Source: Chloroflexota bacterium
GTDB taxonomy: Bacteria > Chloroflexota > Dormibacteria > Dormibacterales > Dormibacteraceae
Direction: 5' to 3'
Assembly (NCBI GenBank): GCA_005882115.1
Contig: VBEG01000039.1
Coordinates: forward strand, 1-64,000
DNA length: 64,000 bases
How positions within the stretch are numbered: the first letter of the stretch is position 1; each line of letters begins with the position of its first letter. Under the pieces are notes generated by a model. That model had not been told where the DNA came from, searched no databases, and worked only from the letters and a program-made list of their open reading frames with translations. A program made the translations under genes and the position numbers. Shown in pieces: positions 10,131-49,790 of the stretch.

Positions 10131-10922
10131 GTGGTCCTCCCTCCTGACCTCCACGTGCACACGGAATGGTCGTACGACGGCAGGCGCGGGTCGATGGAGC
10201 GCAGCTGCGAGCGCGCGATCGAGCTGGGGCTCCCGGCCGTCGCCTTCACCGACCACGCGGACTTCGTGAAGGTCCACGAAGACCAGTACTGCGTCGACAT
10301 CGCGGGCTACCTTGACTCGGTGGAGCGATGCCGCACCAAATTTCCGGGCCTGCGCATCCTGAGTGGCGTCGAGCTCGGCGAGCCTCACTGGTTTCCCGCT
10401 GAGACGGCGGCCGTGCTGTCCGTGGGCCCGCTGGATAACGTCCTCGGCTCGGTCCACTGCGTGAAGCTGGAGGGCGAGATCGTCGATGCCAGCCAGCTGC
10501 GAGACCGCGAAGGCGTCGACCTGGCTGCGGCTACCCGGGAGTACTTCGGCGAGGTGCTCGCGATGCTCGAGGCGGACCAGCCTTTCGAGACGCTCGCCCA
10601 TCTCGACTACCCGAAGCGCTACTGGATCGAGGGAGCGCCGCCATATAAGGAAAAGGACTTCGAGCCTGAGATTCGCGAGGTGCTGAAGGCTGCCGCTCGA
10701 ACAGGCCGCGTGCTGGAGGTGAACACGACGCGCGGCGACAGGCTGTGCCCGGACATGACTGTCGTGCGGTGGTGGCGAGAGCTGGGCGGGCAGGCCGTGC
10801 AGTACGGCAGCGATGCGCACAGCCCAGACAAGATTGCCGCCGGCTTTCATGTGGCGACGCAGATGGTTGAGGCGGCCGGCTTCAAGCCGGCGCGCGATCC
10901 GGTCTCCCTGTGGCGCCGCTGA
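10131..10922 (+). CDS. PHP-domain phosphatase, histidinol-phosphatase-like
   Basis: A 263-residue metal-dependent hydrolase of the PHP superfamily. Metal ligands are seen in DLHVHTEWSYDG, AFTDHADF, GVELGE, GSVHC and YGSDAH. This is the HisK-type layout, in which histidinol phosphate is a usual substrate, but no his genes lie nearby, so another phosphoester is possible. It starts with GTG, and its 3' end overlaps the next gene by 13 bases, suggesting cotranscription. Confidence 0.8.
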   Translation: MVLPPDLHVHTEWSYDGRRGSMERSCERAIELGLPAVAFTDHADFVKVHEDQYCVDIAGYLDSVERCRTKFPGLRILSGVELGEPHWFPAETAAVLSVGPLDNVLGSVHCVKLEGEIVDASQLRDREGVDLAAATREYFGEVLAMLEADQPFETLAHLDYPKRYWIEGAPPYKEKDFEPEIREVLKAAARTGRVLEVNTTRGDRLCPDMTVVRWWRELGGQAVQYGSDAHSPDKIAAGFHVATQMVEAAGFKPARDPVSLWRR

Positions 10923-12151
10923 TCCTGCGGCCATCGTCGCCGGCCCACGGTGGGGCCGCGGTCGCTCGTGACGACGGCAAGGTGTGGCTTGTCAACTACG
11001 CGCTGCCGGGCGAGGTCGTCGAGGCGGAGCCGCGCGGCCGCCAGGGCGGTGTCGCTGTCGCGGCGGCCACTCGCGTGATCGAAGCCTCGCCCCATCGCGT
11101 CGCCGCGCCGTGCCCTTACTTCGGCGCCTGCGGCGGCTGCCAACTGCAGCATGCCTCTTACGCCCATCAGCTCGAGCTGAAGCGGCAAGTGGTCGAAGAG
11201 GCCTGGGCGCGAGCGGGCCTGCGCCTGCCTCCGGATACCGCCGTCCTCGGTATGGATGATCCGTGGCGGTACCGGATTCGCGGTGAGTTCGAGGCTGTCG
11301 CCGGCGCGGGTGGGTGGCGGTTCGGCTTTCACCGCCTGCGCTCGCACTCGGTGCTGCCGATCGACAGCTGCGTCATCCATGACGCTCGGATCGAAAGCGC
11401 ATTACCGGCCTTTGCGCAGGCCGCGAACGAGCTACAGCTGACCGGCTTGCAGAATCTGCTGCTGACCGCTGAGCCGACCGGCAGCGGGCTGCTGTGGAGG
11501 CTGCGCTTCCACGGCCGTGAGCCGCGTTGGCCGCGCGACGATTTCGCGCACCGCGTGGCCGAGCTGCTTCCCGGCTCGACGTTGCTCGACGAGGCGATGA
11601 CGTTGGAGTTCTGGAACATGACGTTTCGTGTCCGTAGCGACACGTTCCTGCAGACGAACTACAAGCAGATGCTCGTCCTGTACCAAGTCGCCCTCGACAT
11701 GCTGCAGACGAAGAGTGAGGAGCGCATCCTCGATCTCTACGCAGGCATCGGGACGATCTCGGTCGCGGTCGCTCGAAGTGGGGCCGCGGTGACGGCCATC
11801 GAAGAGAACCCGCACGCGGTGCAGCTCGGGAGGCTCAACGCGCGGATCAACTCGGCACGAGTCGAGTACCTGCCCGGCAAGGTGGAGACGGTGCTCCGCG
11901 CCATCCGGCTTGGACAGCACCAGGCCGTGATCCTGGACCCGCCGCGCGCGGGCTGCGAACCAGCGGCACTCGCGGAGCTGATTCGGCTGGGGCTTGACCG
12001 CCTCGTCTACGTCAGCTGCGAGCCCTCGACGCACGCGCGGGACCTCGTGGGCCTGGTGCGCGGCGGTTATAGGGTCAGGCGCGCCGCGATCGTCGACATG
12101 TTTCCGCAGACGTACCACATTGAATCCGTGGCCATGTTGGAGCGGAGCTAG
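10910..12151 (+). CDS. TrmA/RumA-type RNA (uracil-5-)-methyltransferase
   Basis: A 413-residue class I methyltransferase that probably makes m5U in rRNA or tRNA. It has a TRAM-like N-terminal segment, an iron-sulphur motif CPYFGACGGCQLQH, substrate-loop DTFLQTNYKQM, SAM-binding LDLYAGIGTISVAVA, and VILDPPRAG. The catalytic Cys lies in VYVSCEPSTHARDL. Which RNA site is modified cannot be told from sequence. The start is GTG overlapping the preceding phosphatase gene. Confidence 0.88.
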   Translation: MAPLILRPSSPAHGGAAVARDDGKVWLVNYALPGEVVEAEPRGRQGGVAVAAATRVIEASPHRVAAPCPYFGACGGCQLQHASYAHQLELKRQVVEEAWARAGLRLPPDTAVLGMDDPWRYRIRGEFEAVAGAGGWRFGFHRLRSHSVLPIDSCVIHDARIESALPAFAQAANELQLTGLQNLLLTAEPTGSGLLWRLRFHGREPRWPRDDFAHRVAELLPGSTLLDEAMTLEFWNMTFRVRSDTFLQTNYKQMLVLYQVALDMLQTKSEERILDLYAGIGTISVAVARSGAAVTAIEENPHAVQLGRLNARINSARVEYLPGKVETVLRAIRLGQHQAVILDPPRAGCEPAALAELIRLGLDRLVYVSCEPSTHARDLVGLVRGGYRVRRAAIVDMFPQTYHIESVAMLERS

Positions 12152-12153
12152 AG

Positions 12154-12211
12154 GAGCAGCCCCAATCCCCCGCCTCCGGCGGGTGCTTCCCCACAAGTGG
12201 GGAAGAGTTTT
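12154..12211 (+). repeat. Double-hairpin palindromic repeat
   Basis: AGCCCCAATCCCCCGCCTCC-GGCGGGTGCTTCCCCACAAG-TGGGGAAGAGTTT. This is one of the clearest copies, with both hairpins intact (CCCGCC/GGCGGG and CTTCCCCA/TGGGGAAG). It follows the methyltransferase stop directly. Confidence 0.8.
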
Positions 12212-12217
12212 GCCGGC

Positions 12218-12319
12218 TTAACGTTCCAGCTTGCGGGCGAGCTTGACGACTGAAAGCCGCAGGCGCCCCGGGCCGAGCGACCTGACGACCATCGACAGGA
12301 TCGGCCTCAGCAGCTGCAT
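12218..12319 (-). CDS. Small protein (33 aa), LGPGRLRL family copy A
   Basis: A 33-codon ORF (ATG 12319, TAA 12218) encoding MQLLRPILSMVV... followed by SLGPGRLRLSVVKLARKLER. A second ORF at 13577-13675 encodes the same core LGPGRLRL-VVKL. Over the 12 aligned core codons there are six synonymous third-base changes and one amino-acid change, a coding-selection pattern. The two copies flank the aminotransferase gene on the same strand. The hydrophobic N-terminal half and basic C-terminal half suggest an amphipathic or membrane-associated peptide. No function can be assigned and no clear ribosome site is seen. Confidence 0.5.
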   Translation of the reverse strand: MQLLRPILSMVVRSLGPGRLRLSVVKLARKLER

Positions 12320-12394
12320 GTCGGGCCAAACGAAACGTGGGGTGGGACGGTTACGCCCGAAGTCAACGGCGGCAGCTTAAACGAAACGACCCGG

Positions 12395-13552
12395 CTACGT
12401 ACTCCCGTGTACGAATCTGGCCAGCCGGCCGACTCCTTCGCGCAGGTCTGCCTCTGAGCTCGCCAGGCTGATCCGCACGGCCTCCGAGGCCACCTCGCCG
12501 AACGCGGTCCCTGGCGCGGCGCTGACCCCCTGCTCGCGGAGCAGGGCAAACGAGAATTCACGGGCAGGAAGGCCCCGCAACGAGACGTCGGCCATGATGT
12601 AGAAGGCCCCGGTCGGTTCGGAGATCAACAGCTCCGCGTCCTTCAAGATGTCGACGACGAGATCCCGGCGCCGCCGGTAGGCGCTGACCATCTCGCCGAC
12701 GCAGTCCTGTGGACCGGTCAACGCGGCTTCCGCCGCGACCTGCGTGATCGTCGAGACGCACGACGAGTTCGACTCGAGGACTTTGGTCGCGGTGTCGATG
12801 AGATCGACCGACCCCGCGATGTAACCGAGACGCCATCCGGTCATCGCGTACGTTTTGGAGAAGGTGAATGCGGTCACGATGCGGTCGTCGTCCGGCGCGA
12901 GCTTGGCGGGACTCGTCCACGATCCGTCGAAGACGATCTGGTCATAGCATTCGTCGCTCAAGAGCCACAGGTTGTGGCTTTGCGCGAGGTCGATCATCGC
13001 CGCGACCGTCGCTTCCGGGTAGACAGCTCCGGTCGGGTTGTTGGGGCTGTTGACCACGAGGATCTTGGTCCGGGGTGAAATGAGCCGCGCCAACGATTCG
13101 AGGTCGGGTTGAAAGCCGTATTCCGGCGGGCATGGGTAGAAGATGCCTCGCGTACCCAGCCAGGGCAGCATCATCCGGTAGTTCGGCCAACCAGGATCAG
13201 GAAGCAGCACCTCATCGCCTTGCTCGAGAACAGCGGCGAACATCGCCGCGATGGCACCGACACCGCCCGGACCGCAGGCGATGGCCTCGGGTGTCGTCTT
13301 GATGCCGTTGACGCGCGCTAGCTTGTCGACCAGCTTCTCGCGCAGCGATAGCAAGCCCTGTGTATGCGTGTAGAAGGTCTTGTTCTCGTCGATCGCACGC
13401 TTGCCCGCGTCCTTGACATGCTGGGGAGTGGGGAAGTCGGGCTGGCCGACGTCGAGGCGGATCGTGCCTGGCCGGCGGATGGCCTCGTTGGCGATCTCGC
13501 GTATCCCCGAGTGCAGTGACTCGGCAGGTCCGTGGGCGAGGGATGGGATCAC
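12395..13552 (-). CDS. PLP-dependent aminotransferase, class I/II
   Basis: A 385-residue fold-type I aminotransferase of the aspartate aminotransferase group. Seen: RLDVGQPDFPTPQHV near the N-terminus, the cofactor-contact Asn region VNSPNNPTGAVYP, DECYDQIVF, the PLP Lys in TFSKTYAMTGWRLGYIAG, and a C-terminal Arg motif EAVRISLASSEADL. The substrate is not determined. GTG start at 13552. It is flanked on both sides by small paralogous ORFs of the same strand. Confidence 0.88.
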   Translation of the reverse strand: MIPSLAHGPAESLHSGIREIANEAIRRPGTIRLDVGQPDFPTPQHVKDAGKRAIDENKTFYTHTQGLLSLREKLVDKLARVNGIKTTPEAIACGPGGVGAIAAMFAAVLEQGDEVLLPDPGWPNYRMMLPWLGTRGIFYPCPPEYGFQPDLESLARLISPRTKILVVNSPNNPTGAVYPEATVAAMIDLAQSHNLWLLSDECYDQIVFDGSWTSPAKLAPDDDRIVTAFTFSKTYAMTGWRLGYIAGSVDLIDTATKVLESNSSCVSTITQVAAEAALTGPQDCVGEMVSAYRRRRDLVVDILKDAELLISEPTGAFYIMADVSLRGLPAREFSFALLREQGVSAAPGTAFGEVASEAVRISLASSEADLREGVGRLARFVHGST

Positions 13553-13576
13553 GGTCCCAATTCTCGCGGGTGAGGG

Positions 13577-13675
13577 CTAGTAGAGCCTGGGGTTGTGGTG
13601 CAGCTTGACGACGGCGAGTCGCAGGCGTCCTGGACCGAGGGTCCAGATCACCAGTCCCAGGACGATCCGTAGCAT
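13577..13675 (-). CDS. Small protein (32 aa), LGPGRLRL family copy B
   Basis: A 32-codon ORF (ATG 13675, TAG 13577) encoding MLRIVLGLVIWT followed by LGPGRLRLAVVKLHHNPRLY. It is paralogous to the ORF at 12218-12319, differing mostly at silent positions in the conserved core. The N-terminal half is hydrophobic with one basic residue, like a single membrane-inserting helix; the C-terminal half is basic. It lies just upstream of the aminotransferase and about 125 bases from the divergent dnaE start. Function unknown. Confidence 0.5.
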   Translation of the reverse strand: MLRIVLGLVIWTLGPGRLRLAVVKLHHNPRLY

Positions 13676-13800
13676 CACACCGGCTTAAACGCGGCCAGGG
13701 CGGAGTCGGTTACTGGCCCAGGAATCTCGGAGGTCGCTCGGGAAGGTGCGCGGCTCGAAGTAGACTATCCGCCGGGGGCCGCCACACCCAGAATCAAACG

Positions 13801-44632: not shown

Positions 44633-44690
44633 GCCAGCCCCATCCCCGCCCTACGGGCGGTACTTCCCCATAAATGGGGAAGAGTTGCGA
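44633..44690 (+). repeat. Double-hairpin palindromic repeat
   Basis: AGCCCCATCCCCGCCCTACG-GGCGGTACTTCCCCATAAAT-GGGGAAGAGTTG is a well-preserved copy with both hairpins. It sits between the crotonase and thiolase genes. Confidence 0.8.
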
Positions 44691-49689: not shown

Positions 49690-49790
49690 TCCAACCCGGC
49701 CCTCCGGCGCCGCCCCATCCCCCGCCTCCGGCGGGTACTTGCCCATAAATGGGGAAGAGTTCCACATCTCCCGACAAGTGGGGAGGCGTT
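49690..49790 (+). repeat. Palindromic repeat, one full copy plus a partial
   Basis: GCCCCATCCCCCGCCTCCGG-CGGGTACTTGCCCATAAATG-GGGAAGAGTTCC is a full copy, followed by ACATCTCCCGACAAGTGGGG-AGGCGTTGGG, a partial one. It lies between the convergent aldolase and pilin genes. Confidence 0.75.

Follow-up and report, generated by a model that had tools for sequence, protein, structure and literature searches.

Do the two very short open reading frames (ORFs) on either side of an aminotransferase gene in this Dormibacteria genome encode peptides and, if so, what might these peptides do? An earlier note, made from the letters of the DNA alone, had singled out the pair within the stretch analyzed here (64,000 nucleotides; hereafter the window). 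Both of the paralogous minus-strand ORFs it described are present, and they flank the aminotransferase as follows.

10910-12151, plus strand: rlmD/rumA, 23S rRNA m5U1939 methyltransferase (TIGR00479, 268.9 bits; cut-off 183.55)
12218-12319, minus strand: ORF A, a 33-aa peptide with its ATG at 12319 and a TAA stop, sequence MQLLRPILSMVVRSLGPGRLRLSVVKLARKLER
12395-13552, minus strand: PLP-dependent aminotransferase, the syntenic neighbor (NCBIfam matches, all below the equivalog cut-offs)
13577-13678, minus strand: ORF B, the paralogous 33-aa peptide, sequence (V/M)MLRIVLGLVIWTLGPGRLRLAVVKLHHNPRLY

Read along the minus strand, the order is B, aminotransferase and A, and around them dnaE lies upstream in divergent and rlmD downstream in convergent orientation. 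The stop codon of ORF B ends 24 nt ahead of the start of the aminotransferase, which itself lies outside the peptide family. The earlier note had placed the right edge of the locus at 13675. An in-frame ATG does stand there, but it is internal; because of the promoter spacing described below, the favored start of ORF B is the GTG at 13678, with the ATG at 13675 a possible alternative. Tryptic digestion of the ORF A product would yield MQLLRPILSMVVR, SLGPGR and LSVVK, of which variants exist.

Within the shared core of A and B, L-G-P-G-R-L-R-L-[S/A]-V-V-K-L, six codon differences are silent and one is a replacement (S to A), as had been counted before. That count was the basis for proposing that the peptides are translated and selected, and we examined the proposal with a homologue search of 100 relatives and a Ka/Ks-type analysis of the copies found. 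All genomes compared are metagenome-assembled genomes (MAGs), some of them incomplete, and the evidence is comparative throughout. The ORF frame evolves like coding sequence. Among the 16 copies of ORF A from the genus, pN/pS was 0.25 in the ORF frame and greater than 1 in both other sense frames, and tree-based counts gave 88 synonymous versus 49 non-synonymous changes (p 6e-18 against an expected synonymous fraction of 0.29). When the A copies from other genera were added, making 24, the counts were 153.5 synonymous and 99.5 non-synonymous, with an omega-like ratio of 0.28 (p 1.3e-24). No copy contained an in-frame stop, and within the genus the first 31 codons aligned free of indels, so the possibility that the frame is broken in relatives failed. 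Synonymous change thus far exceeds non-synonymous change in a frame that relatives have kept, and by this comparison A and B are almost certainly translated, selected peptides.

Two other origins for this signal were rejected. A non-coding repeat would be dispersed, and over the ORF only the A and B copies match each other at the DNA level in the genome; the constraint is also frame-specific. An ORF on the antisense strand showed weaker constraint (omega-like 0.36 versus 0.22 for sense), and the promoter lies on the sense strand; the synonymous excess in one antisense frame arises because third positions coincide. A different, dispersed element does occupy 12153-12210, between the convergent rlmD and ORF A. 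It contains two short hairpins (CCGCC..GGCGG and TTCCCCAC..GTGGGGAA), recurs about 33 times elsewhere in the genome (within the window at 631-692, 44635-44686 and 49706-49761, among other places), and is perhaps a mobile terminator-like repeat.

ORF A was found in 16 of the 17 genomes of the genus and in eight genomes from six other genera of the same taxonomic family. Its only absence within the genus was from an incomplete genome (G004); matches elsewhere in the genus had E-values of 1e-10 to 1e-13, except for one at 5e-8 (G005). When 400 genomes of the phylum were searched with a profile, a clean gap separated family members (E at most 4e-9) from noise (E at least 6e-4), and no match outside the family rose above noise. 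The similarity is therefore, by the homologue E-values and by this gap, far above chance. The 15 named MAG loci found with an alignment of the family carry the labels Chloroflexi and Candidatus Dormiibacterota, and most of their scaffold names are soil-depth-like. A plasmid search gave no match. As the earlier note had suspected, no known family accounts for these peptides: Pfam, NCBIfam and PDB held nothing in common with any of the 26 members. The A/B peptides, of about 33 residues, are a real, previously undescribed family in soil Dormibacteria.

Wherever the contig was long enough, ORF A lay between the aminotransferase and rlmD; in one genome (G019) it lay between dnaE and rlmD, and the aminotransferase was not found adjoining. 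ORF B was seen only here and in a genome of another genus (G022), at differing positions relative to the aminotransferase, and was not found upstream of that gene in relatives. The two ORFs flank the aminotransferase in the window but do not form a conserved unit, as only A is conserved and B is rare. The rarity of B had escaped the sequence-only reading, as had two further features, an ECF-type promoter and a third paralogue.

The promoter became apparent from the DNA upstream of both ORFs.

12329-12332, minus strand: −10-like element CGTT of ORF A, ending 9 nt before the ATG
12350-12355, minus strand: −35-like element CGTAAC of ORF A
12356-12386, minus strand: extra conserved block (TCGTTTA..CTGCC..GTTGA..TCGGG) upstream of the ORF A promoter, from column conservation within the genus
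13688-13691, minus strand: −10-like element CGTT of ORF B, 9 nt before the GTG
13709-13713, minus strand: −35-like element GTAAC of ORF B

All 26 A/B copies, from seven genera, carry GTAAC-N15-17-CGTT, and in 25 of them the CGTT ends exactly 9 nt before the ATG or GTG. With AAC at −35, CGT(T) at −10 and a fixed distance to the gene, the motif resembles promoters used by ECF sigma factors; AAC in the −35 element is common among ECF groups (PMC8791391). A Shine-Dalgarno site would not fit into these 9 nt, which suggests that the A and B messages are quite probably leaderless.

Conservation in the region just upstream of ORF A is similar to that of the ORF itself (mean conservation over 45 bases 0.91, versus 0.92-0.93 at first and second codon positions), and B lies directly upstream of the aminotransferase, as might be expected if the locus encoded a regulatory leader peptide or small RNA whose reading frame is incidental. 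That idea is largely refuted, and we regard it as highly improbable. The constraint is frame-specific (p ~1e-24), downstream of A there is only a convergent gene, B is absent from this position in relatives, and no Rfam family came near threshold, with sub-threshold matches only. As a leader peptide of the aminotransferase in particular, A was rejected by its position downstream of that gene, and B is unlikely.

We asked which other genes stand behind the same motif. CGTAAC-N16/17-CGTT occurred at 15 sites in this genome, compared with three for the reversed motif and six with the wrong spacing; over eight genomes there were 102 sites, compared with 33 reversed and 27 with a spacing of 20-21 nt. 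Coding-like ORFs 100 aa or longer began 5-13 nt downstream of 21 of the 47 motif sites examined, and of 3 of 27 controls. The genes behind the motif encode an ECF sigma factor (Sigma70_r2/r4), a LytR_cpsA_psr (LCP) protein, two Transgly proteins, a bifunctional Transgly plus Transpeptidase penicillin-binding protein (PBP), a Big_5/MG2 protein, a Beta-lactamase-family protein and several lipoprotein-like proteins; at two sites (L159, L163) they have no obvious wall role. The predicted regulon is dominated by envelope genes, namely those for LCP, transglycosylases, PBP and lipoprotein-like proteins. In three genomes (L150, L180, L184) an unannotated small protein of 36-56 aa with one hydrophobic segment also lies downstream of the motif.

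In 26 of the 26 peptide-clade orthologues examined, that of G003 included, the motif stands in the promoter of the sigma gene itself, and 27 orthologue loci bear it in all; an ECF factor that regulates itself would be expected to show this placement. Several ECF sigma factors may coexist in one genome, and it is by its autoregulatory arrangement that this sigma is provisionally paired with the motif. The sharing of the motif with an ECF sigma factor and with envelope genes places the peptides most likely in an autoregulated, envelope-related ECF-sigma regulon, and we consider it very likely that A and B belong to an ECF-type regulon with the GTAAC-CGTT motif. The sigma is not a SigE orthologue, scoring 84 bits against TIGR02983 (SigE-fam_strep; cut-off 141.6). 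Its best model was TIGR02952 (BldN), at 127 bits versus a cut-off of 206. Orthologues were found in 61 of the 61 genomes searched and so are distributed more widely than the peptides, which are confined to the sub-clade where the sigma orthologue is at least 85% identical. The sigma gene is followed by one for a 728-aa protein (L225:1296-3479) that appears to have one membrane segment and contains two Big_5 stretches. No recognized anti-sigma domain matched this protein, which is possibly an unusual anti-sigma factor.

The third paralogue, type C, is longer and lies elsewhere in the genome.

C124:25726-25818: type C paralogue

Type C proteins are 55-78 aa long with the core LVKPFVVMAARVLGPGPTRLRLVKLAHNL, and were found in seven genomes outside the genus and in 16 of the 17 within it. 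They are under stronger constraint than A (185 synonymous versus 60 non-synonymous changes, p 8e-51). Their upstream motif, RRTACTC-N13-CGTT, is unlike the A/B promoter. It is common to type C, to a second small protein (MNEFDRFLEL...) and to a membrane protein just before a bifunctional PBP, and lies about 10 nt before start codons (L068, L101, L213, L292 and L293, on G000:C124, G017:C90 and G014:C98). Genome-wide there was no enrichment of this motif; its sites cluster around type C. The second small protein of the cluster is 68-82 aa long and starts M(N/D)(D/E)F. Near the cluster lie another ECF-type sigma factor and a two-component pair comprising a GAF histidine kinase and a LuxR regulator. 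The C-terminal tails of type C proteins vary in length and sequence, while every one of them closes with Ala-Ala (e.g., L076:2895-3128); as speculation, this end might be a protease signal, a ClpXP-like C-terminal degron.

What the peptides do must be judged from their properties and their company. A and B share the invariant core L-x-P-G-x-L-R and have a net charge of +4 to +7. AlphaFold predicted one helix over residues 4-32 (mean pLDDT 78.6, pTM 0.33), weak evidence when it comes from a single short peptide. The first half is amphipathic in most A copies (helical moment 0.38-0.62 in the five scored; 0.28 in B), and the second half alternates polar and apolar residues, with a larger moment at 160 than at 100 degrees. 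The peptides showed neither a signal peptide nor a full transmembrane segment. A transmembrane peptide was rejected: the best 19-residue Kyte-Doolittle means were 0.74-1.53, and no window exceeded 1.6.

Short, cationic, hydrophobic peptides behind a stress-type promoter could be toxic or antimicrobial (type I toxin-like or bacteriocin-like) and made under stress. We consider this very unlikely, given a chromosomal position fixed across many genera, strong purifying selection rather than diversification, and no transporter, leader or immunity gene seen alongside; nor do they have the one full transmembrane helix that, together with an antisense RNA, marks type I toxins. The peptide could instead be a cytoplasmic feedback regulator that tunes the response by binding RNA polymerase, the ECF sigma, the anti-sigma or the ribosome, which would suit its basic character, its place in the sigma factor's own predicted regulon and its confinement to the sub-clade of close sigma orthologues. 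The hydrophobic half and the amphipathic pattern suggest a membrane surface instead, and because type C differs in promoter and neighborhood, a sigma-specific partner is less likely for the whole family. We therefore regard feedback regulation as unlikely.

Because the peptides lack a signal peptide and a full span and appear to share their regulation with wall enzymes, a role at the inner membrane surface is the simplest proposal. The ECF sigma would probably be held by the adjacent membrane protein, a putative anti-sigma with outer Ig-like and propeller-like domains, and be freed on an envelope signal. The freed sigma would direct RNA polymerase to GTAAC-N16/17-CGTT promoters, its own included; the motif and its autoregulatory arrangement are observed, and that this sigma is the one that uses the motif is presumed. 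Transcription at A and B would start at or a few bases from the start codon, giving a leaderless mRNA that is translated into a peptide of some 33 residues, positively charged and predicted to be helical. The peptide would most likely sit on the cytoplasmic membrane's inner face, modulating either the membrane or the wall-building enzymes made with it. We think this whole chain, from a translated family in an autoregulated ECF-sigma regulon up to an envelope-related role, is somewhat more probable than its alternatives together; that the peptide acts at the membrane or the wall machinery is a tentative proposal. Against this explanation, type C, the best conserved paralogue, has a different promoter motif.

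SpoVM of Bacillus, a curvature-sensing peptide whose amphipathic helix binds membranes, and YohP of E. coli are small stress-induced membrane-associated peptides with a documented membrane role. The peptides described here likewise have fewer than 50 residues and no signal peptide; unlike those two, their membrane association is only inferred, and the likeness is one of functional analogy, with no sequence relation claimed. YohP is also covered in PMC12719787. The regulon resembles that of S. coelicolor sigmaE, whose promoters have AAC at −35, CGT at −10 and a 16-17-nt spacer, and whose targets include LCP proteins, penicillin-binding proteins, transglycosylases and lipoproteins (PMC6767563); both promoter type and target classes are alike. 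It differs in its host, a Chloroflexota/Dormibacteria lineage, in its sigma, which is closest to the BldN-type NCBIfam model and well below cut-off, and in including conserved ~33-aa peptides at leaderless-type spacing. A literature search found no paper that brings small proteins and leaderless messages together with ECF sigma factors and cell envelope stress, and nothing relevant about small proteins of Dormibacteria.

No part of a genome is less annotated than its small proteins; the present family lies below the usual limits of gene finders yet is conserved across many genera. Its promoter and regulon give a testable hypothesis of function for a largely uncultured soil lineage and bear on how such bacteria may sense envelope damage. 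A bolder and rather improbable idea is that the leaderless paralogous peptides, A, B and the Ala-Ala-ending C, spread over two separate stress-sigma-like regulons that are both tied to peptidoglycan synthases, directly modulate wall synthesis at the membrane. If true, the two-regulon peptides of Dormibacteria would be a form of wall control of a kind unknown in other bacteria.
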